Origin: Anaerolineae bacterium
GTDB taxonomy: Bacteria; Chloroflexota; Anaerolineae; UBA4142; SHND01
Length of the DNA stretch: 64,000 nucleotides
Direction: 5' to 3'
Assembly: GCA_020851635.1 (NCBI GenBank)
Contig: JADZCJ010000118.1
Coordinates: forward strand, 1 to 64,000
This document shows, one piece after another, positions 2,034-19,209 of the stretch (position 1 is its first letter; each line of letters begins with the position of its first letter). The translations under genes were made by a program, and so were the position numbers. The notes under the pieces are model-generated. The model did no database searches, had not been told where the DNA came from, and saw nothing but the letters and a program-made list of their open reading frames with translations.

Positions 2034-2987
2034 TCAAATGACCAATGCCATCGGCATTGGGAGATCCTTGCGAAATTCCGTGAATTGATCCTTGACGTGC
2101 ATGCCTGCCCGCCGATAGAGCTGCAGTGCGCCCGAAGGATTTTCGGCGTCCACCTCCAACCCGGCATGCGGCACGCCGAGTTTATGGAGCTCGCCAAATA
2201 CAGTATCGAGCAACGCGAGACCAATCCCGCGTCCCCGCCAGGGGCGGCGGACAGCGACCTGTTGGACCCAGCCACCCAGCGAGTCATTCATCGTAATTGT
2301 CGCTCCCACCACGAGTTGGTCGTCAAGCGCCAGGTACGAGAGGTGCGGCGCGAACGCACCATGTTCGAGGACAAGCGATGCCCATTCGTCAAATGGCACG
2401 TCGTTGTGCTGCCACAAATCGCGAAACGCTTCCTGAATACACGACCAAACGAGACGGTCGTCCTCTCCTCTCACAAAGGGGCGCAAAAGAATCCTCTCTG
2501 GTACTTTTGGTCGAGTCGGGGGTTGTGTCAGGTCAATATGCATGATGAATGCATGGCGCACCGCGTGATAGCCGTGTCGCTCCATACGGTTGACTTTGAC
2601 CGGTTCCGCCGCGTTCACGACATGACGCAGAACAATTTGGCGGTCCTCGATGCGTTCGAGCGCCCATGCCTCGGCGTTCTCGAGGATCCAATCCCCCAAA
2701 ACGGTGTGTTTAAAGCGCGGGTGGACGCACGAATTGTTGTTGAGGTGAACAACCTCTCCGGCATCGTACATGTGCATATACCCTGCGAGCGTTTCGTCGG
2801 ACGCAAAAATCATCCAGGCGTCGGTTTCGAGGTCAAGTCCCTTGCGCCGCCACATTGCGAGTTGGTCCGCCAGGTTCCATTCGGGCTTGCCGAATTCGTC
2901 AATGTCGCAGGCGACGATCAGGTCAGCGACCGCTTGCGCGTCCTCCATCGTCGGGCGACGCGTGGTAAAGCCATCAGGCAGTTTCAT
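2034..2987 (-). CDS. Two-domain GNAT N-acetyltransferase
   Basis: This 317-residue protein is built from two GNAT folds, as in mycothiol-synthase-like enzymes, and should transfer an acetyl group from acetyl-CoA to an unknown amine. The N-terminal half (1-150) has a degenerate acetyl-CoA loop. The C-terminal half (160-310) has an intact one (VRRPWRGRGIGLALL) and the closing signature VDAENPSGALQLYRRAG, which is shared with three paralogues upstream and with the adjacent pseudogene. The start ATG has GGGAGG seven bases upstream. It is the last gene of the long minus-strand operon and is separated from the MFS gene by 106 bases containing a strong stem-loop. The substrate cannot be read from sequence. 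Confidence 0.85.
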   Translation of the reverse strand: MKLPDGFTTRRPTMEDAQAVADLIVACDIDEFGKPEWNLADQLAMWRRKGLDLETDAWMIFASDETLAGYMHMYDAGEVVHLNNNSCVHPRFKHTVLGDWILENAEAWALERIEDRQIVLRHVVNAAEPVKVNRMERHGYHAVRHAFIMHIDLTQPPTRPKVPERILLRPFVRGEDDRLVWSCIQEAFRDLWQHNDVPFDEWASLVLEHGAFAPHLSYLALDDQLVVGATITMNDSLGGWVQQVAVRRPWRGRGIGLALLDTVFGELHKLGVPHAGLEVDAENPSGALQLYRRAGMHVKDQFTEFRKDLPMPMALVI

Positions 2988-3037
2988 GGTGTTCCTCCCG
3001 TGTCAAAGTCGTCCATAGTTCAGAAGGTGTTCGTGTT

Positions 3038-3089
3038 GCGGGTCTATGCAGGTGCGAGTGTGAATGTCCCTTGTCCTGCATAGACCCGC
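3038..3089. repeat. 15-bp perfect inverted repeat (stem-loop)
   Basis: The arms 3038-3052 (GCGGGTCTATGCAGG) and 3075-3089 are perfectly complementary around a 22-base loop. It lies between the stop of the MFS gene and the start of the last GNAT gene. There is no T-tract in either direction, so it is more likely an mRNA-processing or stability hairpin, or a partial attenuator, than an intrinsic terminator. Confidence 0.8.
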
Positions 3090-3093
3090 GTCA

Positions 3094-4326
3094 TTATGCC
3101 TCTGCGTTTATAGGCGCAGGACCGCGTTCAGTCGCATCTATTTTGCGTGAGTAGAGGTAGAGCGCCGGAACGAGAAACAGGGCGGCGACGACCATTTCGA
3201 CGCGCAGCGAAACGAGGGTCGCGATGGCGCCGAGGATGGGACCGCCGATCATTTGACCGAACGCGTCGGACTGGTTGCGCATGGAAAACACGGTCGCGCG
3301 CACGGATGAATCCACATGCTGGTTCAGCCACGCGGTCGCGAGCGGATAATTCATGCCGCGAATGGGATTGAGCGCGAGGACCGCCACGAGCGCGACGCCA
3401 AAGTTCCACGCCAGACCGAACACGATCATGAGAGCCATGAGCAAGGTCACGACAATTTGGAGAGAGCGCGCGACGACGACCTGATTGTTGGTGTCAACGC
3501 GGCGGTTCACAAATTCTGTCATTCCTATCCCCAGCACGAGCGAGATTGCACTGATGATGCCAATCCAGACTACAGGTTCCCAGTATGGCATCGAGTAGCT
3601 GACCAGATGCGGCACCCAGAGGCGGTCAAAGCCCTCGCTGAATGCGCCAAAGAATGCGGCTGCGATTACGAGTGTGACCAACACGCGGCGGGAACGAATG
3701 ACGCCCAAGCCCTGGCGAAAGGTATGCCCCATTTGTTGGAAATTGGACCGTTCCTCGCGGGGTTTGGGTTTGAATCCCGTCTCGGGCATGATGAGGGCAA
3801 GGATGCCTCCCAAAACAACGAGCAGCACACCACCCAACACGATCGGGATGTTGAGCGCGACCGTGCCGAGCAGGACGCTGGCGAGAATGCCGAACAGCGC
3901 ACCGGCGTTGCCAAACTGATTGCCGCGCAAGAATGCCTTGCCTGCTTTTTCCGGTCCGACCTCGTCGGCGACCCACGCTTCTTCTGCGCCGCTCATAAAG
4001 GTAACGCCGATACCCCAGATGACCTGGGCGAGCAGAATTGCCCAGAACCGGGGAATACTGCCCTCGACGATAAACCCGAGACCCACCAACACATAGCCGA
4101 TGATGATGGATAAACGGCGGCTGTAAACATCGGCGATGATGCCTGTGGGCACTTCTGCGATGAACGCGGTAAATTCCAACACCGTGCCGACGAGCACGAG
4201 TTGAAACGGATTCAAGCCCACCGTTTCGACCAGGTAGAGCGTCGAGACGGTAAAGATCACGGCGAACAACAGGGACGCCGTGAAACTCTGAAAAAGATAA
4301 ACAGGATATCCGTTGAGGCGCTTCAT
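3094..4326 (-). CDS. MFS drug-efflux-type transporter
   Basis: This 410-residue membrane protein has the hydrophobic pattern of twelve transmembrane helices and the MFS cytoplasmic loop after helix 2 (IADVYSRR, residues about 64-71). The GAEEAWVADEVG segment after helix 4 resembles DHA3-type tetracycline/macrolide exporters known from environmental Chloroflexota, so drug efflux is a reasonable inference; the substrate is unknown. Its ATG follows the rsgA stop codon by one base (TAA-C-ATG), with AGAGGCGAG just upstream inside rsgA, implying translational coupling. Its position among an ABC-F gene and many acetyltransferases supports a detoxification role. Confidence 0.85.
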   Translation of the reverse strand: MKRLNGYPVYLFQSFTASLLFAVIFTVSTLYLVETVGLNPFQLVLVGTVLEFTAFIAEVPTGIIADVYSRRLSIIIGYVLVGLGFIVEGSIPRFWAILLAQVIWGIGVTFMSGAEEAWVADEVGPEKAGKAFLRGNQFGNAGALFGILASVLLGTVALNIPIVLGGVLLVVLGGILALIMPETGFKPKPREERSNFQQMGHTFRQGLGVIRSRRVLVTLVIAAAFFGAFSEGFDRLWVPHLVSYSMPYWEPVVWIGIISAISLVLGIGMTEFVNRRVDTNNQVVVARSLQIVVTLLMALMIVFGLAWNFGVALVAVLALNPIRGMNYPLATAWLNQHVDSSVRATVFSMRNQSDAFGQMIGGPILGAIATLVSLRVEMVVAALFLVPALYLYSRKIDATERGPAPINAEA

Positions 4327-4327
4327 G

Positions 4328-5326
4328 TTAGCTCGCCTCTAACTTTTCGATGATTGTGCGATAGCTTGTATAACGCCGCGCTGATATCTCACCCGAGGCG
4401 ACCGCGTTCTTGATGGCGCAGTCGGGTTCGTGGTCGTGGGAACAGTCGTTGCCAAAACGACATTTGCCGAGATGGGGACGGAATTCGGGCAAGAGTTCGG
4501 CGAGTTCGGTGGGCTGAATATTCCAGAGAGTGAGATATTTCAAGCCCGGTGTGTCCACAACCCGCCCGCCGAAATCAAAATCATACATTTCGAGATGTGT
4601 GGTCGTGTGTTTGCCCTTGCCCGACGCACTGCTGATGTTGTTGACGCGCAACGCGAGCTTGGGCTGGAGGGCGTTGAGCAGGGTGGATTTGCCGACGCCG
4701 GACATGCCGACAAATACACTCATGCGGTCGCGCAGGATGGACTGTAAGTCCTCGATCCCCTGTCCTGTGGCGGCGCTGGTAAACAAAAGAGGGTAGCCGA
4801 TCTTGCGATACGTTTCTGCTTCGGTTTCCACCTGCTTGTCTCGCAATAGATCTCTTTTTGTAAAGACAATCAGGGAAGGGACATCTGCGTTTTCTGCGGA
4901 CGCCAGATAGCGGTCGAGCAGCTCCCAACGCGGCGCGGGCTGCGCGGACGCGACTACATGAACGAGAAAATCAATATTTGCCGCAATGACTTGCTCGGTC
5001 GGCTTGAGCCCGGGGTCCCGGCGCGCAATTTGATTGCGGCGGGGCATGACCTGCATAATGATGCCCGTTTGGTCGCCCGCGGGCAGAAACTGCACCACGT
5101 CGCCGATGGCAATCGGGTCAACGACACGAATATCGTGCACGTCAATGACACGGCGCCGGCGTGAAGTTGGCGCGGCAATCGGATATTCGAGCACTTTGCG
5201 GAGGCGCGACGAAATTTCACAGTCTACGAGATGCCCGTTAACGCGGACACCATAATGTCCAAGTGATTTTTTATATACGACCCCTTGCGCGAGTTGCGCG
5301 GCAGAGGTGTCTGATTCGAGAGTCAT
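4328..5326 (-). CDS. rsgA: Ribosome small-subunit GTPase RsgA
   Basis: RsgA is a circularly permuted GTPase that checks late 30S assembly. With the start at 5326 (AAGGAG five bases upstream) the protein has 332 residues: an OB-fold domain (about 15-110), then the permuted G motifs in the order G4 (TKRD, 156-159), G1 (GMSGVGKST, 207-215), G3 (DTPG, 258-261), and a C-terminal zinc site (C289, C295, H297/H299, C303). An in-frame ATG at 5398 gives 24 more residues that do not resemble the family; a second strong Shine-Dalgarno (AAGGAGGT) lies before it. Finding this ribosome factor inside a resistance-like operon between an MFS exporter and a hydrolase is unusual. Confidence 0.93.
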   Translation of the reverse strand: MTLESDTSAAQLAQGVVYKKSLGHYGVRVNGHLVDCEISSRLRKVLEYPIAAPTSRRRRVIDVHDIRVVDPIAIGDVVQFLPAGDQTGIIMQVMPRRNQIARRDPGLKPTEQVIAANIDFLVHVVASAQPAPRWELLDRYLASAENADVPSLIVFTKRDLLRDKQVETEAETYRKIGYPLLFTSAATGQGIEDLQSILRDRMSVFVGMSGVGKSTLLNALQPKLALRVNNISSASGKGKHTTTHLEMYDFDFGGRVVDTPGLKYLTLWNIQPTELAELLPEFRPHLGKCRFGNDCSHDHEPDCAIKNAVASGEISARRYTSYRTIIEKLEAS

Positions 5327-5405
5327 GGATTCTCCTTGAATGATTAGAGGAACGAGGCATTGCGCAGCGATTCCGGATTGAGGAGAAATTGAATACATGT
5401 TTCAT
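5271..5405 (-). CDS. Possible 44-residue upstream ORF before rsgA
   Basis: ATG 5405 has a near-perfect Shine-Dalgarno (AAGGAGGT, five-base spacing) and opens a short frame ending at TAA 5273-5271, which overlaps the beginning of rsgA in another frame. The peptide is basic and resembles nothing I know. It could be a leader or coupling ORF, or the ribosome site may simply serve rsgA from ATG 5398. Confidence 0.2.
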   Translation of the reverse strand: MKHVFNFSSIRNRCAMPRSSNHSRRIHDSRIRHLCRATRARGRI

Positions 5406-5416
5406 AGAGCACCTCC

Positions 5417-6286
5417 TTATTCTTGTGATGCTTGAAGCCAGCCGACGGTATTGGGGTCAACGTCACCGCCCAGTTCGGCATACGCGCTTTCGACGTTGCG
5501 ACGGTGCGCTTTGTGATTGTTTTCGACGGATTGACGATAGGGAATATCGGCGCACAGGGCGATTGTTTCCTGGAGGGATATGCCCGCCTTGACAGCATGG
5601 ATTACGCGTCCATGCAGTTCCGCGATATAGCGGCGGTCGTTCTCGATCCGCGCGCGAATTTCGGCGGGGTCCCGGGTCGGCGCGCCGTGACACGGGACCA
5701 ACATTCGGAAATCATCGGCGTTGATTTTTTGCATCGTATTCGTATAGTCGCCGAGATTGTCACTGACAAACGGAATTTCCTCATCGCTCAGCATATCGGC
5801 TGTCCAGACCGTGCCCGTCGCGGTTTCACGCACAAAAAGGTGGTCCGGCGCATGTCCCGGAGTGTGACAGAGTTCCAATTCCCAATCGCCAATCTCGAGG
5901 GTCATGGTCGCCCCGACCCACCGGGAAGGTTCGGGCATCTCGAACGGTCTGGTGAGGGCAAGATTGGGAGTGTTTGCAATGATTTCACGGATGCGTTGAT
6001 GATAAGTTCGCGCCTCTCTTGCAAACGCGTTATGGGCAATGACCTCTGCGCCGTTCCAGAGGTCCACCCCAAGGATATGGTCCCAGTGACAGTGAGTGAG
6101 AATGATTGCATGCACGATCCACTTGCGCGCCTCGATGAATTGCGCAATGGCATTGATTTCGGGTTCCGAGATGCCCGGGTCTACAAGCACCACATTGCCG
6201 TCATGGACAAAAATGCCGCTGTGGTAGGTGAATAGTGCGCTGGAATTGGTCCAGAGTGTGGGTGTGAGTGGGGTGAGGTCGGTCAT
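5417..6286 (-). CDS. Metallo-beta-lactamase-fold hydrolase
   Basis: This 289-residue protein has the zinc-binding MBL signature THCHWDH (His65, His67, Asp69, His70), then PGH (His145), TAD (Asp164) and PCHG (His200), so both metal sites look complete. The fold covers glyoxalase II, lactonases and beta-lactamase-like enzymes; the spacing is glyoxalase-II-like and no specific substrate can be assigned. The start ATG 6286 lies eight bases after the stop of the Eis-like gene, so the two are co-translated. A longer in-frame upstream extension exists but lies inside the preceding gene and does not look like family sequence. Confidence 0.85.
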   Translation of the reverse strand: MTDLTPLTPTLWTNSSALFTYHSGIFVHDGNVVLVDPGISEPEINAIAQFIEARKWIVHAIILTHCHWDHILGVDLWNGAEVIAHNAFAREARTYHQRIREIIANTPNLALTRPFEMPEPSRWVGATMTLEIGDWELELCHTPGHAPDHLFVRETATGTVWTADMLSDEEIPFVSDNLGDYTNTMQKINADDFRMLVPCHGAPTRDPAEIRARIENDRRYIAELHGRVIHAVKAGISLQETIALCADIPYRQSVENNHKAHRRNVESAYAELGGDVDPNTVGWLQASQE

Positions 6287-6294
6287 GTTGCTGC

Positions 6295-7650
6295 TCAATG
6301 AACCGGCATAATATGGGTTACGCGTTTCGGGAAAAGAATGTCGAGCAGAGCTTTGTTGCGGTCGCTGTCCACGATGCAATCGGGATACATATCAGCCAGT
6401 TCGACGCGCGAACGATAGCCAAACAATAGTTTCAGAAAGGTCAGGTCAGGGAACGCCGCATCGCCAAATCCCTTTTGCCCGATATCAACCGCCGTGGGCT
6501 GCCAGAGTCCGGCGACAGTCAGCTTGCCATTTTCGAATTTCACGCGCAGTCCGTTACGATAAAAGTTCAATGCAATCTCACCCGAATAGTTCCGCAGTTC
6601 CGACGCCGCGAGGCGCTGCTCCAAAACGGGCGCGATTTTCGTGAAAAATGCGGGCAGATCAGCAACGCGGATATACCAAGCATAGGGACCAAAGATCTGG
6701 GATGTTCTGCCCGCTGTGACAGTGTAGAACGGGTGGTTTGAGGAGAGATTCCACCCCAGCGACCCCAAGACCGAATTGTCCTGCCCGGCGATCTCGCCTG
6801 CCTGCCGCGCCAGCTCGCGCAGCACAAACGGTGTGACCTCATGCCACTCGAACGGCGGCTGAATTTCGTAGCAGAGTGTCCTGTGCTGTCCCTGGTGAAG
6901 ATGGCGACGGCGCATAATGACTCCGACGCGTTCGCCCTCTAGAGTTTCGATCACATCCCACCACGATTGCTGTCCGTTTAACGGGTCGGTTTCATTGAAA
7001 TTCTCATATTCGAGCGTGGCAGGGTCGCGTTCGCAGTGCAAGAGCGAACGTTTTGCCCCCAGCTTGTACATTTCTGCGACAAAAGGCAGGTCCGCAGGTC
7101 CCGCATGACGCAATTGATAATTGTCTATTTCTCCCGCGTTCAGCGTCGGAATTTGTTGGGGGACGAACGTCTGATAGGGCGCAGGCAATTCAATCGCAAA
7201 TTCGTAACCGAATTGGCGATAGTAAAAGGGAATTCCCGTTATTGCCTGGAGCAGCTCGCCGCGCTGCGCGCTCATTTCGTGCACGACGCGAAACTGTTCG
7301 CGGACCAGCCCGCGGTGGCGATACCCCGCATCCGTACCGACGATTTCTACTTGACCGACGGGAAAGGAAATCCCGTCCAGACTCCAGGTCTGGGAAATCA
7401 GGCAGAGGCACGAGACGATTTTGTTGGTGGCAGTTTCGACCACAATCAAAAAATCGTTTGGGCGAAAGGTGGGATGCTTGCCGCCCATCAAATCGCGCGT
7501 CCAGCCGCCCACATAAATCTCCAGTTCGCCGGTATCGGGATTGGCAAATGCGTGGATCTGCATTTCGACCAGCGCAGCTGTGTCCTCCACCGTGGCATGG
7601 CGCAGGATAAAACCGTTTCCAAGATCAAGAGGATTGTCAGATGTGTTCAT
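6295..7650 (-). CDS. Eis-like GNAT N-acetyltransferase
   Basis: This 451-residue protein has the three-part plan of the Eis family. An N-terminal GNAT domain carries the acetyl-CoA loop GYRHRGLVREQF (residues about 110-121). A second, degenerate GNAT-like domain follows (about 170-330), then a C-terminal sterol-carrier-like domain (about 335-451). Eis enzymes of mycobacteria acetylate several amines of aminoglycosides and polybasic peptides at many positions, so a resistance function is plausible by family. The start has no obvious Shine-Dalgarno. It is separated from the ABC-F gene by 45 bases and from the MBL hydrolase by eight. Confidence 0.85.
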   Translation of the reverse strand: MNTSDNPLDLGNGFILRHATVEDTAALVEMQIHAFANPDTGELEIYVGGWTRDLMGGKHPTFRPNDFLIVVETATNKIVSCLCLISQTWSLDGISFPVGQVEIVGTDAGYRHRGLVREQFRVVHEMSAQRGELLQAITGIPFYYRQFGYEFAIELPAPYQTFVPQQIPTLNAGEIDNYQLRHAGPADLPFVAEMYKLGAKRSLLHCERDPATLEYENFNETDPLNGQQSWWDVIETLEGERVGVIMRRRHLHQGQHRTLCYEIQPPFEWHEVTPFVLRELARQAGEIAGQDNSVLGSLGWNLSSNHPFYTVTAGRTSQIFGPYAWYIRVADLPAFFTKIAPVLEQRLAASELRNYSGEIALNFYRNGLRVKFENGKLTVAGLWQPTAVDIGQKGFGDAAFPDLTFLKLLFGYRSRVELADMYPDCIVDSDRNKALLDILFPKRVTHIMPVH

Positions 7651-7695
7651 GGATGTTGTTGGTTAAATCAAAAGTTGGAGAATTGACAAGCTGTC

Positions 7696-9342
7696 CTACC
7701 GGAACATGGATGCGCGGTCCGGAAAAACGCGCAGGGTTTGGTCTTGGATTGCCCAGATGCCCGTCGCAAAGCGGTCAATGAACGCGCGGTCGTGGACGGC
7801 GACGAGAATTGTGCCCGGAAAGGCATCGAGCGCCGCCTGGAAATGTTCGCGTGACGGAATGTCGAGATGATTGATGGGTTCGTCCAAAATCAAGACATTT
7901 GATTTTTCGGTGACGAGTTTTGCGAGAATCAGGCGGGCGCGTTCGCCATAACTCAGATTGCCGATGGGCGTCAAGACCTCGCCGCCTTCAAACATGAAAA
8001 AATGCAGGAAATGGCGCGCCTCGGTTTCATCTATGGGCATCAGCGAGCGAACGAGCGCGAGAGGCGTTTGCGCCGGATCAAGCGTTTCCTGCTCCTGCGG
8101 CATGTAGCCGAGGCGGACATTCGCGCCCAACCGTATCGCCCCTTCTGTCGGCGGGATTTCACCGACAATGTTGCGCAGAAGTGTGGATTTGCCCGTGCCG
8201 TTCGGCCCAACGAGTGCGATCCGTTCGCCGTGACTCAGAACGAGCGAGGCATGGCGATAGATCCAACGTTCGCCAAAGCGCATTCCCACATCCTCAAGCC
8301 CGAGCACCATTTGTCCGCTGCGCGGCATCTCGCCAAATTCGAGTTTCATGGCGTATCCCGCTTTGGGTTTTTCGATGCGGTCGTCGGACTCGAGATAGCG
8401 GTTTAATTTTTTCTCGCGCGAAAGGGCTTTTTTGGCGACTTTTTTGGCATAACGGCGCACCGTGGGCTGCCGTGAGGTCGTGGTCTTTTCGACCCACAAT
8501 GCGTGTTCTTTGGTGCGCGCAATGTCATGTTCGAGCCGACGGATTTCTGCCTGTTGGTCCCGGTAGGCTGCCCACGTCTTTTCCAACGCGTGTTCTTTGG
8601 CATCCTCGTACGCCGTATAATCGCCGTGATAGGGTGTGAGTTGATGCGTCTCGTCGTCCAGTTCGAGAATGAGAGAGACGGTACGATCGAGAAATGTGCG
8701 GTCGTGTGAAACAATCAGCGCGGCGCCCGAATAATCGCCGAGAAAAACTTCGAGCCATTCCAGCGCTTGCATATCGAGATGATTTGTCGGTTCATCGAGC
8801 AGCAAAACGTCCGGCTCGGAAATCAACAGGCGCGCGATCCCCGCGCGGGTGCGCTGTCCCCCGCTCAATTTCTCGATGGGCAGATCACGCGACACCCGTT
8901 CCAATCCCAAACCGCGCAGAATTTCTTGGATTCGCGATTCCATGTCATAGCCGCCGAGCGTTTCAAAGCGCGCGACCGCAGCGGAATATTCATCGAGCAG
9001 GGCAACATCAGATGCGGCGTGTTCCATCCGATTGGCAAGCGCATCCATCGCGCGTTTCGCCCCATCCCATTTGCTCACACCTTGACGCACAAGGGTTTCG
9101 AGGGTGAGTTCATTCGCAAAAGACTGTCCTTGAGGGAGATAGCCCAGCGTCGTATGCGAGTCGAGACGCGAGTACCCGCTGTCGGGCTGCTCCAGCCCAG
9201 CAATGATACGGAGAAGAGTGGTCTTGCCTGCGCCGTTCGCGCCGACCAGCGCCGCGCGCTCTCGGCGATTGAGCACGAAAGATACGTCGTCCAGAATTGT
9301 GCGGACGCCGTAGGTTTTGGAGAGATGCGAGACTTGGAGCAT
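7696..9342 (-). CDS. ABC-F family ATPase (possible ribosome-protection protein)
   Basis: This 548-residue protein has two ABC domains and no transmembrane segment, the ABC-F plan. Domain 1 has Walker A GANGAGKTT (34-42), signature LSGGQ (159-163) and Walker B LLLDEPTNHLD (180-190). Domain 2 has GPNGTGKST (379-387), LSYGE (463-467) and LILDEPINHLD (484-494). A charged linker (about 240-325), the element that reaches toward the ribosomal P-site tRNA in characterised members, joins them. ABC-F proteins either tune translation (EttA, Uup) or displace antibiotics from the ribosome (Vga, Lsa, Msr). The surrounding acetyltransferases, exporter and attenuator-like leader favour the resistance type, but sequence alone cannot prove it. 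Confidence 0.9.
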   Translation of the reverse strand: MLQVSHLSKTYGVRTILDDVSFVLNRRERAALVGANGAGKTTLLRIIAGLEQPDSGYSRLDSHTTLGYLPQGQSFANELTLETLVRQGVSKWDGAKRAMDALANRMEHAASDVALLDEYSAAVARFETLGGYDMESRIQEILRGLGLERVSRDLPIEKLSGGQRTRAGIARLLISEPDVLLLDEPTNHLDMQALEWLEVFLGDYSGAALIVSHDRTFLDRTVSLILELDDETHQLTPYHGDYTAYEDAKEHALEKTWAAYRDQQAEIRRLEHDIARTKEHALWVEKTTTSRQPTVRRYAKKVAKKALSREKKLNRYLESDDRIEKPKAGYAMKLEFGEMPRSGQMVLGLEDVGMRFGERWIYRHASLVLSHGERIALVGPNGTGKSTLLRNIVGEIPPTEGAIRLGANVRLGYMPQEQETLDPAQTPLALVRSLMPIDETEARHFLHFFMFEGGEVLTPIGNLSYGERARLILAKLVTEKSNVLILDEPINHLDIPSREHFQAALDAFPGTILVAVHDRAFIDRFATGIWAIQDQTLRVFPDRASMFR

Positions 9343-9393
9343 GTGGTGAGAGTCCTATTGTTGGCGCGAGCCAAGACCACCCGAACGGTGACG

Positions 9394-10410
9394 CTAACCA
9401 ACCCGCTTTTCGAGAATCAAGCCGGTCTTGAAGGGATGAAAGCCGATGCGCTCATAAAGCGCCAGCGCGCCCGTGAGATTCTCGGCGTCCACGCCCAGTC
9501 CGACATTGTCCAAACCCTCTTGTTTGAACCGGCGCATGGACTCGGCAAGGAGCGCGGAAGCGATGCCCCGTCTGCGCCATTTGCGGCGTGTGCCGAGACT
9601 CCCAATCCAACCGCGTTTGATGCCGAGCCGTTCGTTTTCCTGCTGCTTGACGCGGTTGATGGAAAAGGCGACCACCTCGTCGCCATTCATCACGACCAGC
9701 GTGAGGTCGCGGCGGACGTCGGAAACATCCATGATAAAGGGGTGCCACTCGGGTTCGGTGACTTGCTGGGACCCCCAGTGATCGCTGAACGCTTCGTTAA
9801 AGGCGTCGAGCATGGACCCGTCAATGTCCTCGCCATACGTCCGCAGGGTGAGACCTGTCGGCAGTGGATTGGCGGGGACCGGTTCGTTGAGGTCGCGCTC
9901 CATTTCGAAAAAGGAACGGACATGCACAAACCCGCGTTCGGCAAAGAGAGCGAGTTTACGTGTGTCTGATTCAGGCACAAAAGTCCGAACGAGACGCGGG
10001 AGCGCACGCGCCTCGTCTGTTTGTGCGGTTTCGGTGAGCCGCTCGGTCGCGCGTTCTTGCATCCATTCGATACATTCTTGTTCGAGCCCCCGGTCTCGTT
10101 CGTCGGGGTCACACTCGCAAACCAGAAAAGCGACATTCTCGTTTTTTGGGTTGGGATTGACAAACACCCGCGCAAACGCGGCAAGTTTGCCCCGGAGCGT
10201 TCGAACGATGCGTCCATCGTTTTCGGGATTGCTCCAGGGATCGTCAAATTGGTTCTCGAGGTCGTTGACCGATTCCGTATAGTCGTTGTTGTCGTGCCGG
10301 TTGACGACCTGGAATAGTTTCCAGATATCGCGCAGGTCCTGCCGCGTAATGCCGCGCCAGGTGTGCGCTTGTTTTTGTTCAAAGGATGGAGATGCAACAG
10401 AAAAAGGCAT
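9394..10410 (-). CDS. Two-domain GNAT N-acetyltransferase
   Basis: This 338-residue tandem GNAT protein has an N-terminal domain (about 15-165) that has lost the R/QxxGxG acetyl-CoA loop. Its C-terminal domain (about 180-335) is intact (RRKWRRRGIASALL, then VDAENLTGALALYERIG). It is a paralogue of the genes at 2034, 10454 and 11501. The 43-base gap upstream holds a small perfect hairpin (10430-10445, GACGGC arms around four bases) just before the start. The substrate is unknown; the class includes MshD-type and antibiotic-modifying enzymes. Confidence 0.83.
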   Translation of the reverse strand: MPFSVASPSFEQKQAHTWRGITRQDLRDIWKLFQVVNRHDNNDYTESVNDLENQFDDPWSNPENDGRIVRTLRGKLAAFARVFVNPNPKNENVAFLVCECDPDERDRGLEQECIEWMQERATERLTETAQTDEARALPRLVRTFVPESDTRKLALFAERGFVHVRSFFEMERDLNEPVPANPLPTGLTLRTYGEDIDGSMLDAFNEAFSDHWGSQQVTEPEWHPFIMDVSDVRRDLTLVVMNGDEVVAFSINRVKQQENERLGIKRGWIGSLGTRRKWRRRGIASALLAESMRRFKQEGLDNVGLGVDAENLTGALALYERIGFHPFKTGLILEKRVG

Positions 10411-10453
10411 TGTCGTCCTCGTTTCAACAGACGGCGAAAGCCGTCGCTACAAT

Positions 10454-11473
10454 TTACAGGTTGATTTGTTTGCGAAAGACCGCGGTGGAGCGGACTTGGC
10501 GGTACCCTACTTTTTCGTACAGGTGAAAGGCGCCGGTCGCGTTTTCGGTGTCCACGCCGAGAGCTGTATGGTCAAACCCCATTTCGCGGAACATTTTCAT
10601 GCTCTTGACGAGCAGCGCTTGCGCGATCCCGCGGCCGCGCCACGGTTTGCGAACGCCGATATTTTCGGTATAACCGCGTTTGTAATTGTATTTTTCATTT
10701 TCGAGCGCCTCTACATAATTCAAGACCATGCCGACGATTTGATCGCCCTCCCACGCGACTTGCCATAGATCAGAATTCCAGCGCGGGTTATTGGCAAAAC
10801 GTTGATAATCGCTCTCGTCTTCGACGACTCGGCCCCAATGTTCGGAAAACGCCTCCCCGTCGGCATCCCAGATCGCGCGCCATTGTTCGCGATGGACGAG
10901 ACGGGTCTCGATTCCGGGTGGCAGCTCGAGGTTGGGAATGTTGTCGAGATTGGAACACACCATGTCGGCAAGGTAACGGACGGGTTGATACTCATTTTTC
11001 TGAACCAATGTCTGAAGCCAAGTCTGCGAATCGGCTACAGAGAGCTCGTACCAGTGCGTGAAATGTTGCGGATTTTGCATGGCGTAGGATCGCTGGCGTT
11101 CTTTGGTCGCTCGCAAAAGCTCGTCCTCTACACCCCGGCCGCGCCATTCCGGCAAAACAAATATCCATTGAAAATACACGAATGATTCGTCCGTTGACTC
11201 TGTCCAGCGGCCATCTGCGTAGCCGACCAATTCTGCATCCCGCTCGATTAGCAAAAGGTCGTTGGCAGCGTCAAAATTCTTGAGATCCGCATACATCAAG
11301 CGCAAATCGTCACCGGTGCGCGCCTCTTCGAGACCGTCTGCGCCGCGACTTGCGTTCAGGACCACCGCCATGCGCTCAAAATCCCCATCCTCGCGCCAAT
11401 TGCGCAGGGTCAAACCCTGTGCCTCAAGGACAGGTGGTAGAGCGGACGCTAATAGTTTGAGAGTTGCAATCAT
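10454..11473 (-). CDS. Two-domain GNAT N-acetyltransferase
   Basis: Both GNAT domains of this 339-residue protein keep an acetyl-CoA loop: VLPEWRGRGVEDELL in the N-terminal half and VRKPWRGRGIAQALL in the C-terminal half, followed by VDTENATGAFHLYEKVG. This differs from the paralogues at 2034 and 9394, where only the C-terminal loop is intact, and may mean two active sites. The start has GGAGG six bases upstream, the best ribosome site among the two-domain GNAT genes. It is closest to the next gene upstream (11501-12517), separated by 27 bases, so the pair looks like a tandem duplication. Confidence 0.84.
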   Translation of the reverse strand: MIATLKLLASALPPVLEAQGLTLRNWREDGDFERMAVVLNASRGADGLEEARTGDDLRLMYADLKNFDAANDLLLIERDAELVGYADGRWTESTDESFVYFQWIFVLPEWRGRGVEDELLRATKERQRSYAMQNPQHFTHWYELSVADSQTWLQTLVQKNEYQPVRYLADMVCSNLDNIPNLELPPGIETRLVHREQWRAIWDADGEAFSEHWGRVVEDESDYQRFANNPRWNSDLWQVAWEGDQIVGMVLNYVEALENEKYNYKRGYTENIGVRKPWRGRGIAQALLVKSMKMFREMGFDHTALGVDTENATGAFHLYEKVGYRQVRSTAVFRKQINL

Positions 11474-11500
11474 GGGTCACCTCCAAGAGATGCGTTAGGG

Positions 11501-12517
11501 TCAAACCTGAAAAGCCTTGCGGTATGCGGTCATTGTGCGGATGGGACGGTAGCCCAGTTTCCCGTAGAGTTTGAGCGCTCCCGTTCCATTTTCGGTATCT
11601 ACTTCGAGGGCAGCTTCGGTCATGCCCAGTTCTCGAAATTGTCGCAGCCCACGCGCAATCAGCGCCTGTGCCAGTCCGCGCCCGCGATACGCTTTCAACG
11701 TTGCGATGTCTTCGGTAAAGCCGCGCTTGCGGTTGTAGAGGGCGTTATCCTCCGCGTCCACGGTATTTAGAACAACAGCGACTACCCGGTTGCCGTCCCA
11801 GGCGATCTGCCACAAATCATGGCGTGTGGACGGTCGCTTGAGCCAGAGTTCGTATGCCTCGTCCGTGTGCTCGGTTTCGCCCCAATGTTCGCTAAAAGCG
11901 TCAATCATCGAGAGCCAAATCGCATGCAAATGACCCGGCTCGACGGCGCGAACCTCGATGCCATCGGGCAGCGGCGCGCCCGGAATGTCACCAAGATTGG
12001 GACGCAGCATCGTATAAAAGTAACGGACCGGCGCGTACCCCTCCTGTTCCAGCAAATGTGTGAGGTCCCTCTGTAGATTGTCGAGAAATACCTGAAACGC
12101 CTTTGGCGCTTGCGCCGGATGTGTTGCCGCAATTTCGCGCAGGACTTGCTCGCTGTGGCGAATCATTGCCAGTCCGATGCCGCGCTTTTTATACTCGGGC
12201 AGGACAGAGCCGTGATGGTTATAGCAATATTGTCCGACGGCTTCGGGATAGCCGCGCAATGTTTTGTACGCCACCGCCTCGCCCGCTGCCTCCACCAGAA
12301 ACACGCCGCGCTTGATATCCATGTTTGGCATGGTTTCCAGATTGGACTTGAGGTCGTCCGCCGAGATGGATTCTTCGATCCCCAGCGAATGTCTGTCGGC
12401 ATGAACGATGCGGCGCATTTTTTCATAGTCCGAATCGTCACGCCAGCCGCGCAAGGCGAAACCTGCGGGCAAGCCGGCAGGCGCAAAAGTGACTGCTCCC
12501 GTAATGTTCTGGTTCAT
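11501..12517 (-). CDS. Two-domain GNAT N-acetyltransferase
   Basis: This is a 338-residue tandem GNAT protein. The N-terminal loop is VLPEYKKRGIGLAMI and the C-terminal loop TLKAYRGRGLAQALI, followed by VDTENGTGALKLYGKLG. The shared order and the conserved WGE/DLWQIAWDGN region show that it and the 10454-11473 product are recent paralogues relative to the other two-domain copies. GGGAGC lies seven bases before the ATG. It follows the last RimL-type gene by 30 bases in the same operon. The substrate is not predictable. Confidence 0.84.
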   Translation of the reverse strand: MNQNITGAVTFAPAGLPAGFALRGWRDDSDYEKMRRIVHADRHSLGIEESISADDLKSNLETMPNMDIKRGVFLVEAAGEAVAYKTLRGYPEAVGQYCYNHHGSVLPEYKKRGIGLAMIRHSEQVLREIAATHPAQAPKAFQVFLDNLQRDLTHLLEQEGYAPVRYFYTMLRPNLGDIPGAPLPDGIEVRAVEPGHLHAIWLSMIDAFSEHWGETEHTDEAYELWLKRPSTRHDLWQIAWDGNRVVAVVLNTVDAEDNALYNRKRGFTEDIATLKAYRGRGLAQALIARGLRQFRELGMTEAALEVDTENGTGALKLYGKLGYRPIRTMTAYRKAFQV

Positions 12518-12547
12518 GGCAGATGCTCCCGTTGTCCTGTGAATAAA

Positions 12548-13102
12548 TCAGTCATGTTCTTGGCGTGCTTGCCATTCGCTCCGCAGGATGCCCATTGAAA
12601 CGAGGTCCTCTCGCTTGCCGCCGCGGTGTTCGGTGCCGCGTGTTCCACCTTCGTGGACAAAGCCGACCTTGACATACGAGCGGATGGCTGGCGTGTTGGT
12701 GCTGACGGCGTCCAGTGAGACGCGGTGCAGGTTCAGTTCGAGAAACGCAAAACGCAGAACTACGTTCATGGCGTCACTGCCGTAGCCCTTGCCGCGATAC
12801 TCGCCATCGCCAATTCCGATTCCGACAAAGGCATCGCCCTGCACATGATCCACATGCATCAAAACGACAAAACCAATCAGCTTGTCATCATTGAGCGTGC
12901 GGACGCCAAAGGGATAAAATTTAGGGTTTAGCTCGCGCTCGACCATTTTGCGAACGGCTCGGCGGTCCGGTGGCGTCACCGGCTCGACCGACAAGAGACG
13001 GTTATAGTGCGTGTCCCGATCCCAACCGGCAATCGTCTCAACGTCGCGCTCATCCCGGGCAGTCAGGCGCACCAATTTCCCTCTCAACAGATGCTCATGC
13101 AT
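12548..13102 (-). CDS. RimJ/RimL-type GNAT N-acetyltransferase
   Basis: This 184-residue single-domain acetyltransferase belongs to the RimJ/RimL branch, which includes acetylases of ribosomal protein N-termini and antibiotic-modifying enzymes. It has the acetyl-CoA loop GEYRGKGYGSDAM (about 106-118) and the branch-typical LNLHRVSLDAVSTNTPAIRS segment. ATG 13102 overlaps the end of the preceding gene by eight bases (ATGCATGA), so the two are translationally coupled. It shares a nearly identical C-terminus (VSMGILRSEW) with the product of 13095-13658, showing that the two arose by duplication. Confidence 0.85.
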   Translation of the reverse strand: MHEHLLRGKLVRLTARDERDVETIAGWDRDTHYNRLLSVEPVTPPDRRAVRKMVERELNPKFYPFGVRTLNDDKLIGFVVLMHVDHVQGDAFVGIGIGDGEYRGKGYGSDAMNVVLRFAFLELNLHRVSLDAVSTNTPAIRSYVKVGFVHEGGTRGTEHRGGKREDLVSMGILRSEWQARQEHD

Positions 13103-13658
13103 TTTGAATTCTTTCCCATTCCGAACGGAGGATGCCCATGGAAACAAAATCGCCGCGCTTGCCGTAGCGGCGCATGGCTTGACGTATCACGCCTTCGTGG
13201 ACAAAGCCGACTTTTTCATAGGACCGAATCGCGCGCGGGTTGATGGAAAACGTAAACAGGTTCACGCGGTGCAGATTCAGCTCTAGAAAACCAAAGGCGA
13301 GGATCAGATTCATCGCATCGGTCCCGTAACCCTTGCCCCAATAATCGCGTTCGCCGATGCCGATGGCAACCCATGCGTTGTGGTGCGCGGTGTTGGCGTC
13401 AAAAAGTGAGGTCATGCCGATGAGATGGTCGTCCGCGAGCGTCCGGATCATGAAATTGTAGCTGCCATGGCGGTGTCTTTCTTCTTGACTTGTGAACCAT
13501 TCCTGCGTTTTTTTGACATCGCGCAGCATGGGCGCTTCGGTGTCCCACAATTGCATAAACTCGGTGTCGCGCGACCATTTGGCATAAGCTTGTCCCATCG
13601 CGTCGGGTGAGGCGGCGTCCAGGCGCGTGAGTTTGCCGGTATACAGATTTTGGTTCAT
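13095..13658 (-). CDS. RimJ/RimL-type GNAT N-acetyltransferase
   Basis: This 187-residue acetyltransferase carries ERDYWGKGYGTDAM as acetyl-CoA loop and LNLHRVNLFTFSINPRAIRS downstream. The frame is open far upstream, but the real start is ATG 13658: it overlaps the preceding stop as ATGA, and the protein then begins with the family-typical YTGKLTRLDA. It is the middle gene of three RimL-type paralogues joined by 4- and 8-base overlaps. Which amine it acetylates is unknown. Confidence 0.86.
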   Translation of the reverse strand: MNQNLYTGKLTRLDAASPDAMGQAYAKWSRDTEFMQLWDTEAPMLRDVKKTQEWFTSQEERHRHGSYNFMIRTLADDHLIGMTSLFDANTAHHNAWVAIGIGERDYWGKGYGTDAMNLILAFGFLELNLHRVNLFTFSINPRAIRSYEKVGFVHEGVIRQAMRRYGKRGDFVSMGILRSEWERIQNA

Positions 13659-14233
13659 TGTGCGGTGTCCTCGGCGGGATTTTTGGCGCGCCACTCGTCC
13701 GCCAGAATGCCATATGTCAGCGCATCCCAGTAGCGCCCGTCCCGATAAATCGCTTCGCGGCGACGCACTTCGAGCTGAAAGCCGTGTTTGGCAAGAAATT
13801 TCTGCGCCCCGGTGTTGTATTCGAATGTAAACACTGTCAGGCGATACAGGTTTAGTTCCTCGAACGCATAGCGAAGTATCATTTCGATTGCTTGGCTCCC
13901 CATGCCTTGACGGCGGTCGTCGGGTGAACCGATACCCATGTTGAAATGCGCGTTGCCATGATTCCACTCGATCCAAAAGATGTGGGCAAAACCGATGACG
14001 CGGTCGTCCGCCTGGGTGCGAATCACGAAATAATACAAGGCGTGCCCCGCCTCTTTTTCCATCTCTTCAAATCTCTTTTTGATGTGATATGGCGAAAGAG
14101 GGCGCGCCGGTTCATGGTCAACGAGGCGCAAATATGTCGGGTCGTTCGTCCATTTGGCAAAGATTTCGGCGTCCCGGTCGGCGTCAAACGCCGCGAAACG
14201 GATTTTTTTACCTTCAAAGAGTTGCAAGACCAT
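13655..14233 (-). CDS. RimJ/RimL-type GNAT N-acetyltransferase, first gene of the operon
   Basis: This 192-residue acetyltransferase is the promoter-proximal structural gene of the cluster. It has the loop SPDDRRQGMGSQAIEM (about 104-119) and LNLYRLTVFTFEYNTGAQKF. ATG 14233 is preceded by AAGGAG with a four-base spacer. The 5' leader (about 295 bases) contains a leader ORF and two intrinsic terminators, the second ending only about 30 bases before this start, so its expression must depend on read-through. Its stop overlaps the next start (ATGA). The best guess is a small-molecule or ribosomal-protein acetylase in a resistance setting. Confidence 0.86.
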   Translation of the reverse strand: MVLQLFEGKKIRFAAFDADRDAEIFAKWTNDPTYLRLVDHEPARPLSPYHIKKRFEEMEKEAGHALYYFVIRTQADDRVIGFAHIFWIEWNHGNAHFNMGIGSPDDRRQGMGSQAIEMILRYAFEELNLYRLTVFTFEYNTGAQKFLAKHGFQLEVRRREAIYRDGRYWDALTYGILADEWRAKNPAEDTAQ

Positions 14234-14262
14234 TTTGCTCCTTGGCGCAGGAAAATGAGAAC

Positions 14263-14290
14263 AAAAAAACCACGAGCAGGGCGCCCGTGG
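14263..14290 (-). terminator. Leader terminator T2 before the GNAT operon
   Basis: Transcribed on the minus strand, CCACGGGC pairs with GCTCGTGG (eight pairs, one G-U) around a five-base loop and is followed directly by seven T. It lies between terminator T1 and the first GNAT gene, downstream of the operon promoter, so it can only act as an attenuator for that gene or as a back-up terminator for readers from upstream. Confidence 0.85.
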
Positions 14291-14328
14291 CATGCCTTTC
14301 ACGATCAGGTTGGGTCGGGAAAAGGGAC

Positions 14329-14362
14329 AAAAAAACCACGGGCTATCAGTGTCGCCCGTGGT
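14329..14362 (-). terminator. Leader terminator T1 before the GNAT operon
   Basis: The minus-strand RNA forms ACCACGGGC/GCCCGTGGT (nine perfect pairs, ten-base loop) followed by seven U. The 5' arm CCACGGGC is identical to that of T2, so the T1 3' arm could pair with either 5' arm. It starts 22 bases after the stop codon of the leader ORF, a distance at which a stalled or terminating ribosome could influence folding. Confidence 0.88.
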
Positions 14363-14384
14363 GAAAAATCAATCGCGAGAATCG

Positions 14385-14486
14385 CTAGCGATGGTCAACA
14401 GGCGCACCGGTACAAGGTACCACAGCATCGCCGCCCTTGGGGGTGCGGTTGATGCGAGTGAATCCTTGAGAAAAAGTGTAAATCAT
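14385..14486 (-). CDS. Putative 33-residue regulatory leader peptide
   Basis: ATG 14486 is preceded by a consensus AGGAGG (14501-14496) with a nine-base spacer and lies about 40 bases after the predicted transcription start. It encodes 33 residues beginning MIYTFSQGFTRINR and ending GAPVDHR. The stop codon lies within a 12-base palindrome (14381-14392). No similarity to a metabolic protein is apparent, and no run of a single amino acid marks it as a biosynthetic-operon leader. The combination of a strong ribosome site, a short ORF, two terminators and then resistance-like genes matches leaders that sense ribosome-targeting antibiotics. Its function is inferred from this context only. Confidence 0.6.
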   Translation of the reverse strand: MIYTFSQGFTRINRTPKGGDAVVPCTGAPVDHR

Positions 14487-14534
14487 CAGTATGCGCCTCC
14501 TGTGGGGAAAGATTCCGTCACAAGAACGAGAGTT

Positions 14535-14563
14535 TTTATATCATGGATTGGGGCGGGTGTCAA
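14535..14563 (-). promoter_or_regulatory. Consensus sigma-70-type promoter of the GNAT operon
   Basis: On the minus strand TTGACA (14563-14558) is followed after exactly 17 bases by TATAAA (14540-14535). Transcription should start near 14528 and read through the leader ORF and both terminators into the acetyltransferase genes. It lies downstream of the LysM-protein stop, so it serves only the operon. It is one of the two best promoter matches in the window. Confidence 0.85.
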
Positions 14564-16098: not shown

Positions 16099-18600
16099 TC
16101 AAGGGGTCCAGTTGGGCGGCAACACAAATTGATCGTCCAGATTTACGCTGACGCCGGGCGCTTGCTGCGGCGTCTCTACGGAGGGAGGATCGAGCACCGG
16201 CATCAACGTTTCGCCGGGTTCGATTTCCGTTGGAACGATTTGCGCGAAATCCGTCGGGGCATTTACAACATCCATCGCGTCGGGCAGTATGATGCTTTCG
16301 GCAGTGAGGACCGTCGGCTCGATTGCGGCGGTCGCGTCGTCCACAGCGACATGGGGGAATTCGTCCGATTCCATGATCGAGACCTCGGAATGCGCGCCGC
16401 CTTGTTCGAAATGCATCTGCAACTCGTCCGCATCTGCCGGCGGAGTTTCGAGTTCGACGGTTGCGCTCAGCGCAGCCGGGTCATGCGATTCCGAGACAAA
16501 AGGTGTCAAGTCCGCAACGCCGGGCGGAAATTGACTGCGACCGGGTCTGGTGAGCAGGCGAGGCGACTCCCGGTCCTCTGCTGCTTCCGCAGCGTCATTT
16601 GATTCTGATTCTGTGTGGATCGGCAGCGCAGAGTCATCGGCTGCAAAGAGCGTCGGCGCTTGAATGCTCTCCAGCTCACCCGCCACGCTTTCGGTCGGCG
16701 GATTGAATCCTTCGGGCAGATGGATTTCGCCATTGTCGTCGTCTTCGAGCTGTTCAACGGGCGTAGACTCGGAAAGTGTTTCGATCAGGTCTTTCCAAAC
16801 GCCGTGAATTCCGTCGTCGGTCACGCCATAATAGACGTGCAGTTCGCCATTCGAATCGCGCTGGACCAGATCATAGCGCAGCTTGCCCGCGCGCTCGCTG
16901 GCTTTGACAATGCCCACATCCCCAAGCCATCTGACGTCCGCTTTGGTTACGGTGTGCTTGTCGTGTTCGGCGATGGCATACTGCCACAACTTGCGCGCGC
17001 TCGAACGCGTGACATTGTGGATGATGCGGTTGTTGCGCAGGTCGCGCATGGTGTATTGGTTGTTCCCATGGGGGCGGGTCTTGGAGGCAACGATTTCTAC
17101 TCCTGTGTGCGGCGGAGGTCCGGGCATTTTCGGCGCCGCTTCGGGCACATCACTGTCGGGAGGAACTGTGTGTTTGTCCGAGGCGCTCTCTTTGTCTTCC
17201 GGCTCTTGTTGATCCTCTTTTTGCGTCTTGTCTGCCGTCTTGGATGCCCGGGACGGGGTACTCTCGGAACGCGCCGCAAATTCCACCGCCAGCGCGTCGC
17301 GCACGAGATTGACGATTTCGTCGCGAACGGCGAGCGAGGTCTCGTTTTCCGAGCGCACAAAAATCTGGGTTGAATCGAGCGTGTAGGGCGCCTCTGAGCC
17401 GCGCGGCACAATCATTTGCAGAATCTGTTTGCCGCCGCTCTTGAGCGTGTCCACCTGCACATCAATCGGCGGGACCACATGCTTGTTGATTTCAGCGCGC
17501 AGGTGGGTGGACGTTTCGAACGGCTTGGTCACGCCCTGAACGGGGTGACGAACGTTGGCGCTGGCGCCGATATAAATGGTGCCGCCGTTTGTGTTGGCGA
17601 GCGCGACCACGTCCTGCAAAATGCGGCGGTCAATGCCGTGTTTGCCGACGCTTTCGTGAAACGCCTGCACCAGCGTATCGCCTTCTTCGCGCGCGGAAAA
17701 GATGGGGTCAAATTCCTGAGAGGCAGCCGGAACATACGGGCGGGTCTTGGAAAAATCTTTGCCCGTCAACACATCCATGATGGCATCAAATGATGCTTCC
17801 GACACAAGGATTTCGGTAGGGCGGTCGCCAATACCCAGTTCCTGATTGTTGCCCGGAATGCCATTGACGCGGTGCGCGTCGCTGCCCTGAATGGCGTGCA
17901 TCTTGCGCGGATATTCCGGCTTGGTCCCGCTAAAGAATAATTGGGTGCGGCGGCGCGATTTGCTTGCGAGGTCAGTCACTTCGAGGGCGTGCAGATTCTC
18001 ATCCTGCGTGTAGGCGATGCGTGTTTGTCCGCCAAAATCGAACCCCGGCATCGCGACGCCGTGCGATGAATTGGCGTGGGCGGCGATGACGAGTCCACCC
18101 GCCTCGTTTATGAGACGGTATGCGGTCAACACATCCGTAGTTGCGCCCACTTCGCCGGAACCGACATCCAATTTGTCCGGGGGCACGTTCAAGTCGAGCA
18201 GCAAGTGTTCGAGTTCGCGCACGGTGGTCTCGGGCGGGAAAACGCCAAGCACATGAAAGCCCAGCGTGGCGGTCAACTCGAAACCGGGGAGCACGAGAAT
18301 TTTCTCGCGCAGGCGGCGAAATTCCGTCAATTGTTCTTTTTCTTCCGGCGTCAAGCGGTTGCGCCGCTCGAGCAGTTCCAGGTCTTGAATCTCTTCCATG
18401 TAACGCCGGTATCCCGCCGCCGTGTTGTGGTCGGTGATGGCGATAATATCGAGACCTTTGTGCTCGGCGCGTTTCAGAATGTCGAGATAGGTAACGTTCG
18501 GTTCGCGAAAGTCCGCCGAGGCGGGGGTATGCAGATGCAAATCCATCCGCTTCCACTGCGGGGGATTATTCTTGGATTGTTGTTTTCTTTTTGATGGCAC
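16099..18600 (-). CDS. PHP phosphoesterase-AlbA-like multidomain protein
   Basis: With a GTG start at 18600 (AAAAGGG seven bases upstream) the protein has 833 residues; a TTG at 18654 would add 18. The N-terminal PHP domain (about 15-330) shows DLHLHT, ITDHN, a histidine in AAHANSSH and GSDAH, the metal ligands of PHP phosphoesterases. A segment with [15 protein letters not shown] (about 380) fits an AlbA_2/Schlafen-type nucleic-acid-associated domain. A Ser/Lys/Pro-rich linker leads to a basic globular segment (about 545-650), and the last 180 residues are acidic and probably disordered. Known PHP-ATPase fusions (TrlF-like) differ in lacking such a tail. The role is unknown; DNA repair or stress signalling are guesses. 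Confidence 0.7.
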
Positions 18601-19209
18601 GTGTGAACCCTTTTCTGGGCGCTGCAACAAATGCAACGTGACCACGCAGGTCAAGCGGCGGACCCTCCGTGAATGGAGCGTTCGCGCAGGCGGATAGCGT
18701 TCTGCGCGGATTCGCGGTAAACGGAAAGGTCAGGCAAGACCGATCGGCCAAGTCACATTGATTGCAATTCCAGCGAGAAGGGTTGTAGGGCTGCCATGAC
18801 CTTGACTCGACAAGGGTTTTGGCTGCGAAATTCAAATGCGGGGAGGCGTTTGAGGACGTTCCGGATGCTCGGTGAAAAGTGAAATGGATACCGCGCAAAT
18901 GCGAAACCAAGAGCAAAAAATTTGACCACAGTGGAAAACCTGCTCAATGGAATCCAAATAGGGAACAACCGTTTTTCGCCGACCGCGCGTGAAAGATAAT
19001 TCAAATAGCGCAGTGATTCTTGCTACAACCCAACTCTACAATATATGGCGCGCATCGTTTTGGGGCAAAACCCAATTTGCCAGAGCGCGCCGGTTTAGTT
19101 ATTAAAGGTGGAGCGCTGCATTTGCTCCATTCTGTATGACGCAACAGGGGCGGTGAATGCAACGGCGTTTTGCCTCGCAGTCGGTCCGCCCCTTACCCTA
19201 CTATTATAT
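18601..19209. other. 609-base intergenic region with three inverted repeats
   Basis: No convincing gene is present between the Lon stop and the PHP gene start; the short open frames lack start sites and family resemblance. Three paired elements lie close together: GGCGCGC/GCGCGCC (19047-19053 and 19085-19091) enclosing an inner TTGGG/CCCAA hairpin, GGAGC/GCTCC (19110-19114 and 19124-19128), and AGGGGCGG/CCGCCCCT (19146-19153 and 19186-19193). The last may end the lon transcript. The set could be a structured small RNA, but I could not match it to 6S RNA, SRP RNA or another known class. Confidence 0.4.
19146..19193 (-). terminator. Stem-loop after lon (no T-tract)
   Basis: An eight-pair GC-rich stem begins 16 bases after the lon stop codon on the minus strand. 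The absence of a T-run makes it a weak intrinsic terminator; it may be a 3' stabilising hairpin. Confidence 0.5.

Follow-up and report, generated by a model that had tools for sequence, protein, structure and literature searches.

A conserved leader before a twelve-gene acetyltransferase, ABC-F and exporter train: a candidate family of ribosome-mediated attenuators in Chloroflexota

What controls a long run of genes for acetyltransferases, an exporter and ribosome-directed factors in a bacterium of a mostly uncultured phylum? The question is raised by a 64,000-nucleotide stretch of DNA (hereafter the window; contig JADZCJ010000118.1 of assembly GCA_020851635.1, positions 1 to 64,000) from an Anaerolineae bacterium of the Chloroflexota. 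On its minus strand, twelve open reading frames (ORFs) running from 14233 to 2034 lie downstream of a promoter, a leader ORF of 33 codons, and two terminators. A preliminary description, based on the letters of the window, had taken this leader for a translation-sensing attenuator. The proposal is now strongly supported, as covariation is seen in the alternative RNA pairings, different families share the conserved leader, and the same gene classes always stand downstream. We consider it likely that a ribosome-mediated, cis-acting attenuator controls an antibiotic-stress operon here, and that attenuators of the same family act on other operons for export and modification, both in this genome and in its relatives.

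The leader and its alternative pairings

The promoter that had been placed at 14563 is of the sigma-70 type (Table 1) and sits between the end of the upstream gene, at 14650, and the leader ORF; the ORF and both terminators were also located. Promoter, Shine-Dalgarno region and leader ORF are all conserved among relatives, and the ORF is presumably translated. Terminator 1 was detected in every leader (47/47), between the leader ORF and the first gene. Besides the two terminators, formed by segments 3 and 4 (3:4) and by segments 5 and 6 (5:6), three alternative duplexes can be drawn, namely 1:2, 2:3, and 4:5. The first two compete for the conserved leader end, GTGCGCCTGTT, which codes for ..APVD and whose partners are the Shine-Dalgarno region and the 5' arm of terminator 1. 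In the window, the 1:2 duplex is worth -16.1 kcal/mol.

These pairings were put to a swap test, in which each leader's segment was combined with its own partner and with the partners from other leaders, the significance being obtained by permutation. Among 13 leaders, exchanging partners weakened 1:2 from -16.9 to -13.7 kcal/mol (p<0.0002; 0.0026 in the sister family alone) and 2:3 from -20.8 to -17.6 kcal/mol (p=0.0004), while 4:5 went from -17.4 to -11.6 kcal/mol (p<0.0002 overall, p=0.009 in the genus alone). The control pairings of the 13-leader test, 1:3 (p=0.73) and 1:5 (p=0.14), had no preference for their own partner. With 45 leaders, both 1:2 and 2:3 reached p<0.0002, and with the 20 leaders of a later phylum search the values were p<0.0002 and p=0.0004, respectively; in these two larger sets the 1:3 control stayed at p 0.78-0.93. 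The model used for the phylum search (R1) comprised segment 2 and terminator 1 alone, and for this reason the search could not favour 1:2.

The alignment points the same way. The 2:3 duplex is paired in 96.4% of the cells, against 22-60% when the strands are slid, and terminator 1 is paired in 99.1%, with three pairs that have changed on both sides. In column 62, within the 5' arm of terminator 1, a C->U change goes along with a G->A change in the terminator partner, and it is also matched by G->A in the segment-2 partner in all but two leaders.

Folding was also predicted for RNA truncated immediately beyond the terminator 1 apex, with a ribosome footprint placed on it. The 2:3 duplex forms in 42/45 leaders when the ribosome sits on the start codon, and in none of the 45 when it sits on the last codon; after shuffling of segment 2, the figure is 31/225. 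These results suggest that a completed leader ORF would force termination, and that a ribosome held early would permit antitermination.

The following switch can thus be proposed. In the off state, a ribosome that completes the leader ORF would cover segment 2, and both terminator 1 (3:4) and terminator 2 (5:6) would form. In the on state, a ribosome stalled early in the ORF, as we infer an antibiotic would cause, would block segment 1 and remove 1:2, so that segment 2 would be free to form 2:3 with segment 3, the 5' arm of terminator 1. The freed segment 4 could then pair with segment 5, so that both terminators would fail and the genes would be read. That two terminators can be disarmed in series goes beyond the preliminary description; complementarity and the swap test on 4:5 suggest it for terminator 2.

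Several observations weigh against such a switch. Equilibrium folding of the whole leader usually returns the terminators and gives no general switch, which is seen just in RNA cut before the 3' arm of the terminator exists; in the window leader without a ribosome, 1:2 is not predicted to win. The 2:3 swap test does not reach significance when either family is taken by itself (p=0.13 and 0.28). The segments used in the swap tests were picked semi-automatically, and 1:2 in the larger sets took the best among several Shine-Dalgarno candidates. Several leaders from other families have one clear terminator, and the serial double switch is therefore not universal. The evidence as a whole is made up of sequence comparison and predicted folding. 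Weighed with these points, a ribosome-mediated transcription attenuator is still strongly supported, about as well as comparative data allow.

Distribution of the leader and the genes that follow it

The preliminary description dealt with a single operon, and the attenuator turns out to be a widespread family. With a covariance model that used no gene information, the leader was detected in 19 of the 20 order genomes and, at E 1e-4, in 20 of the 350 phylum genomes. The exact leader motif occurs once in each of six congeners, and a search of viral contigs for it gave no match. Of the 47 leaders, 46 have readable downstream DNA, and all 46 precede genes for a GNAT, Eis, MFS, ABC-2 exporter, RIO-kinase or ABC-exporter; in one (G204) the related class sits second behind the leader instead of first. 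When the gene set and leader were sought together in related genomes, the same leader and gene order recurred in five congeners, as far as their contigs reach, and the leader was found class-wide. The congener train consists of RimL GNATs, two-domain GNATs, an ABC-F protein, an Eis-like enzyme, MBL and/or RsgA, an MFS exporter and a last GNAT, the MBL and RsgA genes being variably present.

The sister family has a rearranged cluster containing an ABC-2 exporter, two RimL GNATs, an MFS exporter, a RIO1-domain kinase, GNATs, a DUF4037 protein, an Eis-like enzyme, and an ABC-F protein; the RIO kinase takes the place of RsgA, and identities to the window are 48-49% for MFS and 53-57% for ABC-F. 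In further families (G152, G280, G313), the leader precedes RimL GNATs, a two-domain GNAT, and Eis-like and/or MFS genes. The window's own genome carries a second leader, on the minus strand of another contig (G000:C121:6562-6656, L126), before a BmrCD-like heterodimeric ABC exporter; no usual Shine-Dalgarno sequence was found before its ORF. A weak model match in this genome (G000:C47) was discarded as a leader, since it looks like an ordinary terminator. Matches to the sister-family motif outside the order were likewise set aside as chance, a reversed control pattern having given about as many, and three records of related MFS genes (L014-L016) showed no leader at R1 sensitivity.

Two kinds of gene found behind these leaders deserve separate mention. 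RIO1-domain kinases lie within sister-family operons (L085 10678-11697, L065 7172-8149, L086 2674-3654) and also have a leader copy of their own in G004, G005, and G292 (L116, L117, L130). A small four-cysteine protein (MNLRCxYCQTPFTxSR..; L155 3228-3647, L156 4387-4794, L160), for which Pfam gives no match, is encoded repeatedly in operons of another family, its gene lying between that for a GNAT and one for an Eis-like or MFS protein.

The leader peptide itself contains no run of a single amino acid, and its N-terminal part varies freely. In the sister family, the bases CCTTGNCGTAGTGCGCCC are read in another frame, ending in ..SLP and a stop, while one member of that family (G292) uses the window's frame and ends in ..PCRSAPFAGR and a stop. 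As the leader end is read in different frames, it is the nucleotides, and so the RNA itself, that are constrained. Within the genus, GGD is retained despite differing third bases, which suggests that the peptide may also matter.

These features bear on the most serious alternative, namely that the leader gauges slow translation in general (starvation, cold, or specific charged tRNAs) and that the operon serves protein acetylation and ribosome maturation instead of drug resistance. RimL- and RimI-type GNATs, RsgA, and RIO kinase do act on proteins or ribosomes, and the conserved leader end could sense particular tRNAs. However, the same leader stands before heterodimeric ABC, ABC-2, and MFS exporters, and the peptide has no single-amino-acid run, varies freely in its N-terminal part and is frame-shifted at its end in the sister family; we regard this explanation as unlikely. 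Far less probable still is self-resistance, in which the operon would guard the organism against an antibiotic of its own making. Producer clusters do include ABC-F proteins, GNATs, and MFS exporters, but here the operon and leader are kept over many genera and families while the neighbours are rearranged, and the genes identified in this respect, limited to a few next to the operon, encode a LysM peptidase and an ISL3 transposase. It is equally improbable that the hairpins, which are strong and directly follow a small ORF, are plain terminators of the upstream gene with an undetected operon promoter behind them, as a good promoter lies between that gene and the leader ORF, relatives have promoters in the same place, and both the leader ORF and the alternative pairings covary and are met again in front of unrelated operons.

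Comparison with known systems

Most of what is established about inducible resistance through leader-ORF attenuation comes from Firmicutes and Actinobacteria. A partial literature search found no paper on such leaders in Chloroflexi or Anaerolineae, which leaves their absence unproven, and two surveys of attenuators and non-coding RNA do not mention the phylum. Rfam 15 gave no family match in the window or at the leaders in 12 loci.

Ribosome-mediated attenuation is proven for vmlR (PMC9226507), bmrCD (PMC4191407), and hflXr (PMC6310831), and leader-ORF attenuation is described for whiB7, whose regulon includes eis2, ABC-F proteins, hflX, and MFS (PMC10727445). A similar layout is that of Bacillus subtilis vmlR, with its leader ORF inside the anti-antiterminator, an overlapping antiterminator, an intrinsic terminator, and an ABC-F gene downstream (PMC9226507). 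Its ORF has three codons and there is one terminator, whereas the leaders here have an ORF of ~16-34 codons with a conserved end and often a second terminator, and the operon comprises 12 genes. The bmrB leader of B. subtilis resembles the second leader of the window's genome (G000:C121) in that a leader peptide and terminator, antiterminator and anti-antiterminator structures precede a heterodimeric ABC exporter, bmrCD (PMC4191407). However, the bmrB terminator lies inside the leader ORF, while in the present leaders it is found downstream of the ORF, and operons of several types share a single RNA family. In Listeria, HflXr (rli80-lmo0762) and lmo0919 provide an attenuator-controlled ribosome GTPase and an ABC-F protein as resistance factors (PMC6310831). 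HflXr is a homologue of the ribosome-splitting HflX, while RsgA is another GTPase, present here as the sole copy and with the genes in one operon. The mefA/msrD operon also combines an MFS exporter and an ABC-F gene under attenuator control (PMC10314930), but it has two genes, two separate leader peptides, and other sequences. Finally, the mycobacterial WhiB7 regulon has a leader-ORF attenuator as its entry and Eis-type and other GNATs, ABC-F, MFS, and a ribosome GTPase as its output (PMC10727445). WhiB7 acts in trans, whereas here each operon has its own attenuator; a search for WhiB (PF02467) in five of the genomes found none, the Corynebacterium control being positive. Judged from sequence, the attenuator would work like the vmlR, bmrCD, hflXr, and whiB7 systems, yet it forms an RNA family of its own, with a distinct leader end.

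At the broadest level, this looks like a shared alarm against ribosome-targeting antibiotics, common to many related bacteria. We give about even chances to the idea that an undescribed Chloroflexota attenuator RNA family acts as the common sensor for a dispersed antibiotic-stress regulon that has no activator, a single design being placed separately before multidrug ABC exporters, operons of acetyltransferases, MFS and ABC-F, and the ribosome-maturation factors RsgA or RIO kinase, with two terminators disarmed in series in its fullest form. Such a family, conserved in a large and mostly uncultured phylum, would show how a coordinated response is mounted without a WhiB7-like activator, with entire operons for acetyltransferases, exporters, and ribosome factors placed under the attenuator. 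The leader RNA signature could help to locate resistance genes that are as yet uncharacterised. On this reading, RsgA and RIO kinase would represent new types of ribosome-directed resistance factor; a role for them under antibiotic stress becomes directly testable.

The twelve genes and their surroundings

All the ORFs of the minus-strand train were present with the expected spacing. From gene 1 to gene 12, the intergenic distances are -4, -8, 30, 27, 43, 51, 45, 8, 18, 1, and 106 bases, with start codons corrected for the GNATs of genes 2 (ATG 13658) and 3 (ATG 13102) and for MBL (ATG 6286). Coordinates are given in Table 1.

Table 1. Leader elements and genes of the minus-strand train in the window
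Feature	Position	Strand	Remark
Promoter, sigma-70 type	14535..14563	-	TTGACA 14563-14558, 17 nucleotides, TATAAA 14540-14535; same type and place in relatives
Segment 1, Shine-Dalgarno region of leader ORF	14490..14501	-	AGGAGGCGCATA; can pair with segment 2 (anti-antiterminator)
Leader ORF	14385..14486	-	MIYTFSQGFTRINRTPKGGDAVVPCTGAPVDHR, then stop; end GGD..PC[TS][GS][AV]PVD recurs in congeners
Segment 2, switching strand	14394..14408	-	GGTGCGCCTGTTGAC; core identical in 14 leaders; segments 1 and 3 are alternative partners
Terminator 1 (segments 3 and 4)	14336..14361	-	-18.1 kcal/mol; followed by T7
Terminator 2 (segments 5 and 6)	14269..14291	-	5' arm complementary to 3' arm of terminator 1
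Gene 1, RimL-type GNAT	13655..14233	-	Acetyltransf_3, single-domain; 74-80% identity in five congeners
Gene 2, RimL-type GNAT	13095..13658	-	Acetyltransf_3, single-domain; 4-base overlap with gene 1
Gene 3, RimL-type GNAT	12548..13102	-	Acetyltransf_3, single-domain; 8-base overlap with gene 2
Gene 4, two-domain GNAT	11501..12517	-	family models
Gene 5, two-domain GNAT	10454..11473	-	family models
Gene 6, two-domain GNAT	9394..10410	-	family models
Gene 7, ABC-F ATPase, ribosomal-protection-like	7696..9342	-	NF000355
Gene 8, Eis-like acetyltransferase	6295..7650	-	Acetyltransf_9; in other families, relatives are encoded behind this leader
Gene 9, MBL-fold hydrolase, accessory	5417..6286	-	missing in congener G002
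Gene 10, RsgA	4328..5398	-	TIGR00157; sole genome copy
Gene 11, MFS exporter, TetA(P)-like	3094..4326	-	75-78% in congeners; in other families, 42-61% for those following this leader
Gap between genes 11 and 12	2988..3093	-	106 bases; 15-bp inverted repeat without T run
Gene 12, two-domain GNAT	2034..2987	-	after RsgA and MFS in G001, after MFS in G002

Pfam and NCBIfam models bore out the families named in the preliminary description and refined two of them. The ABC-F protein passes the model for ribosomal-protection-like ABC-F (NF000355 ribo_prot_ABC_F, 433.2 bits against a cut-off of 380), and the models for named resistance subfamilies (Vga, Lsa, Msr, Sal, OptrA and others) all remain far below their cut-offs. 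For the MFS protein, the tetracycline exporters TetA(P) and Tet(40) score best, both far under their cut-offs, TetA(P) being the top NCBIfam model (NF000043, 319 bits, cut-off 750 missed); its nearest named relative, from a 'Chloroflexia bacterium', has 51% identity. The Eis-like enzyme is above the Acetyltransf_9 cut-off and reaches just 19 bits for PRK01346 (cut-off 259). RsgA is securely identified (TIGR00157, 236 bits, cut-off 100; PDB matches to RsgA). Among the 11 genomes of the order that were searched, RsgA is absent from 8 and was seen only as a member of this operon, in the window, in G002, and in G001 (on a contig carrying RsgA-MFS-GNAT). A duplicated, HflXr-like resistance paralog was considered for this gene and rejected, given its single copy in the genome.

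From the gene classes and the targets of the leader we infer a role in resistance. The GNATs, the Eis-like enzyme, and the MFS exporter would acetylate and export the drug, while ABC-F and RsgA (RIO kinase in the sister family) would clear or repair ribosomes. That the twelve genes form a single transcriptional unit, as first suggested, is favoured by their conserved order and spacing behind one leader; it is less certain for the last gene, given the strong inverted repeat in the 106-base gap. This repeat (-40 kcal/mol) could mark a transcript end, a processing site, or a stabilising element.

Beyond gene 12, the minus strand at 1700-2030 carries a decayed two-domain GNAT, its N- and C-terminal pieces lying in different frames and scoring 82 and 68, where shuffled sequences reach at most 47 and 41; from sequence, it appears to be the remnant of a thirteenth gene. 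Close to this end of the operon, an ISL3-family transposase occupies 111-1685 on the plus strand. On the other side, an 851-amino-acid ORF at 16099-18654 on the minus strand combines PHP and Schlafen AlbA_2 domains.

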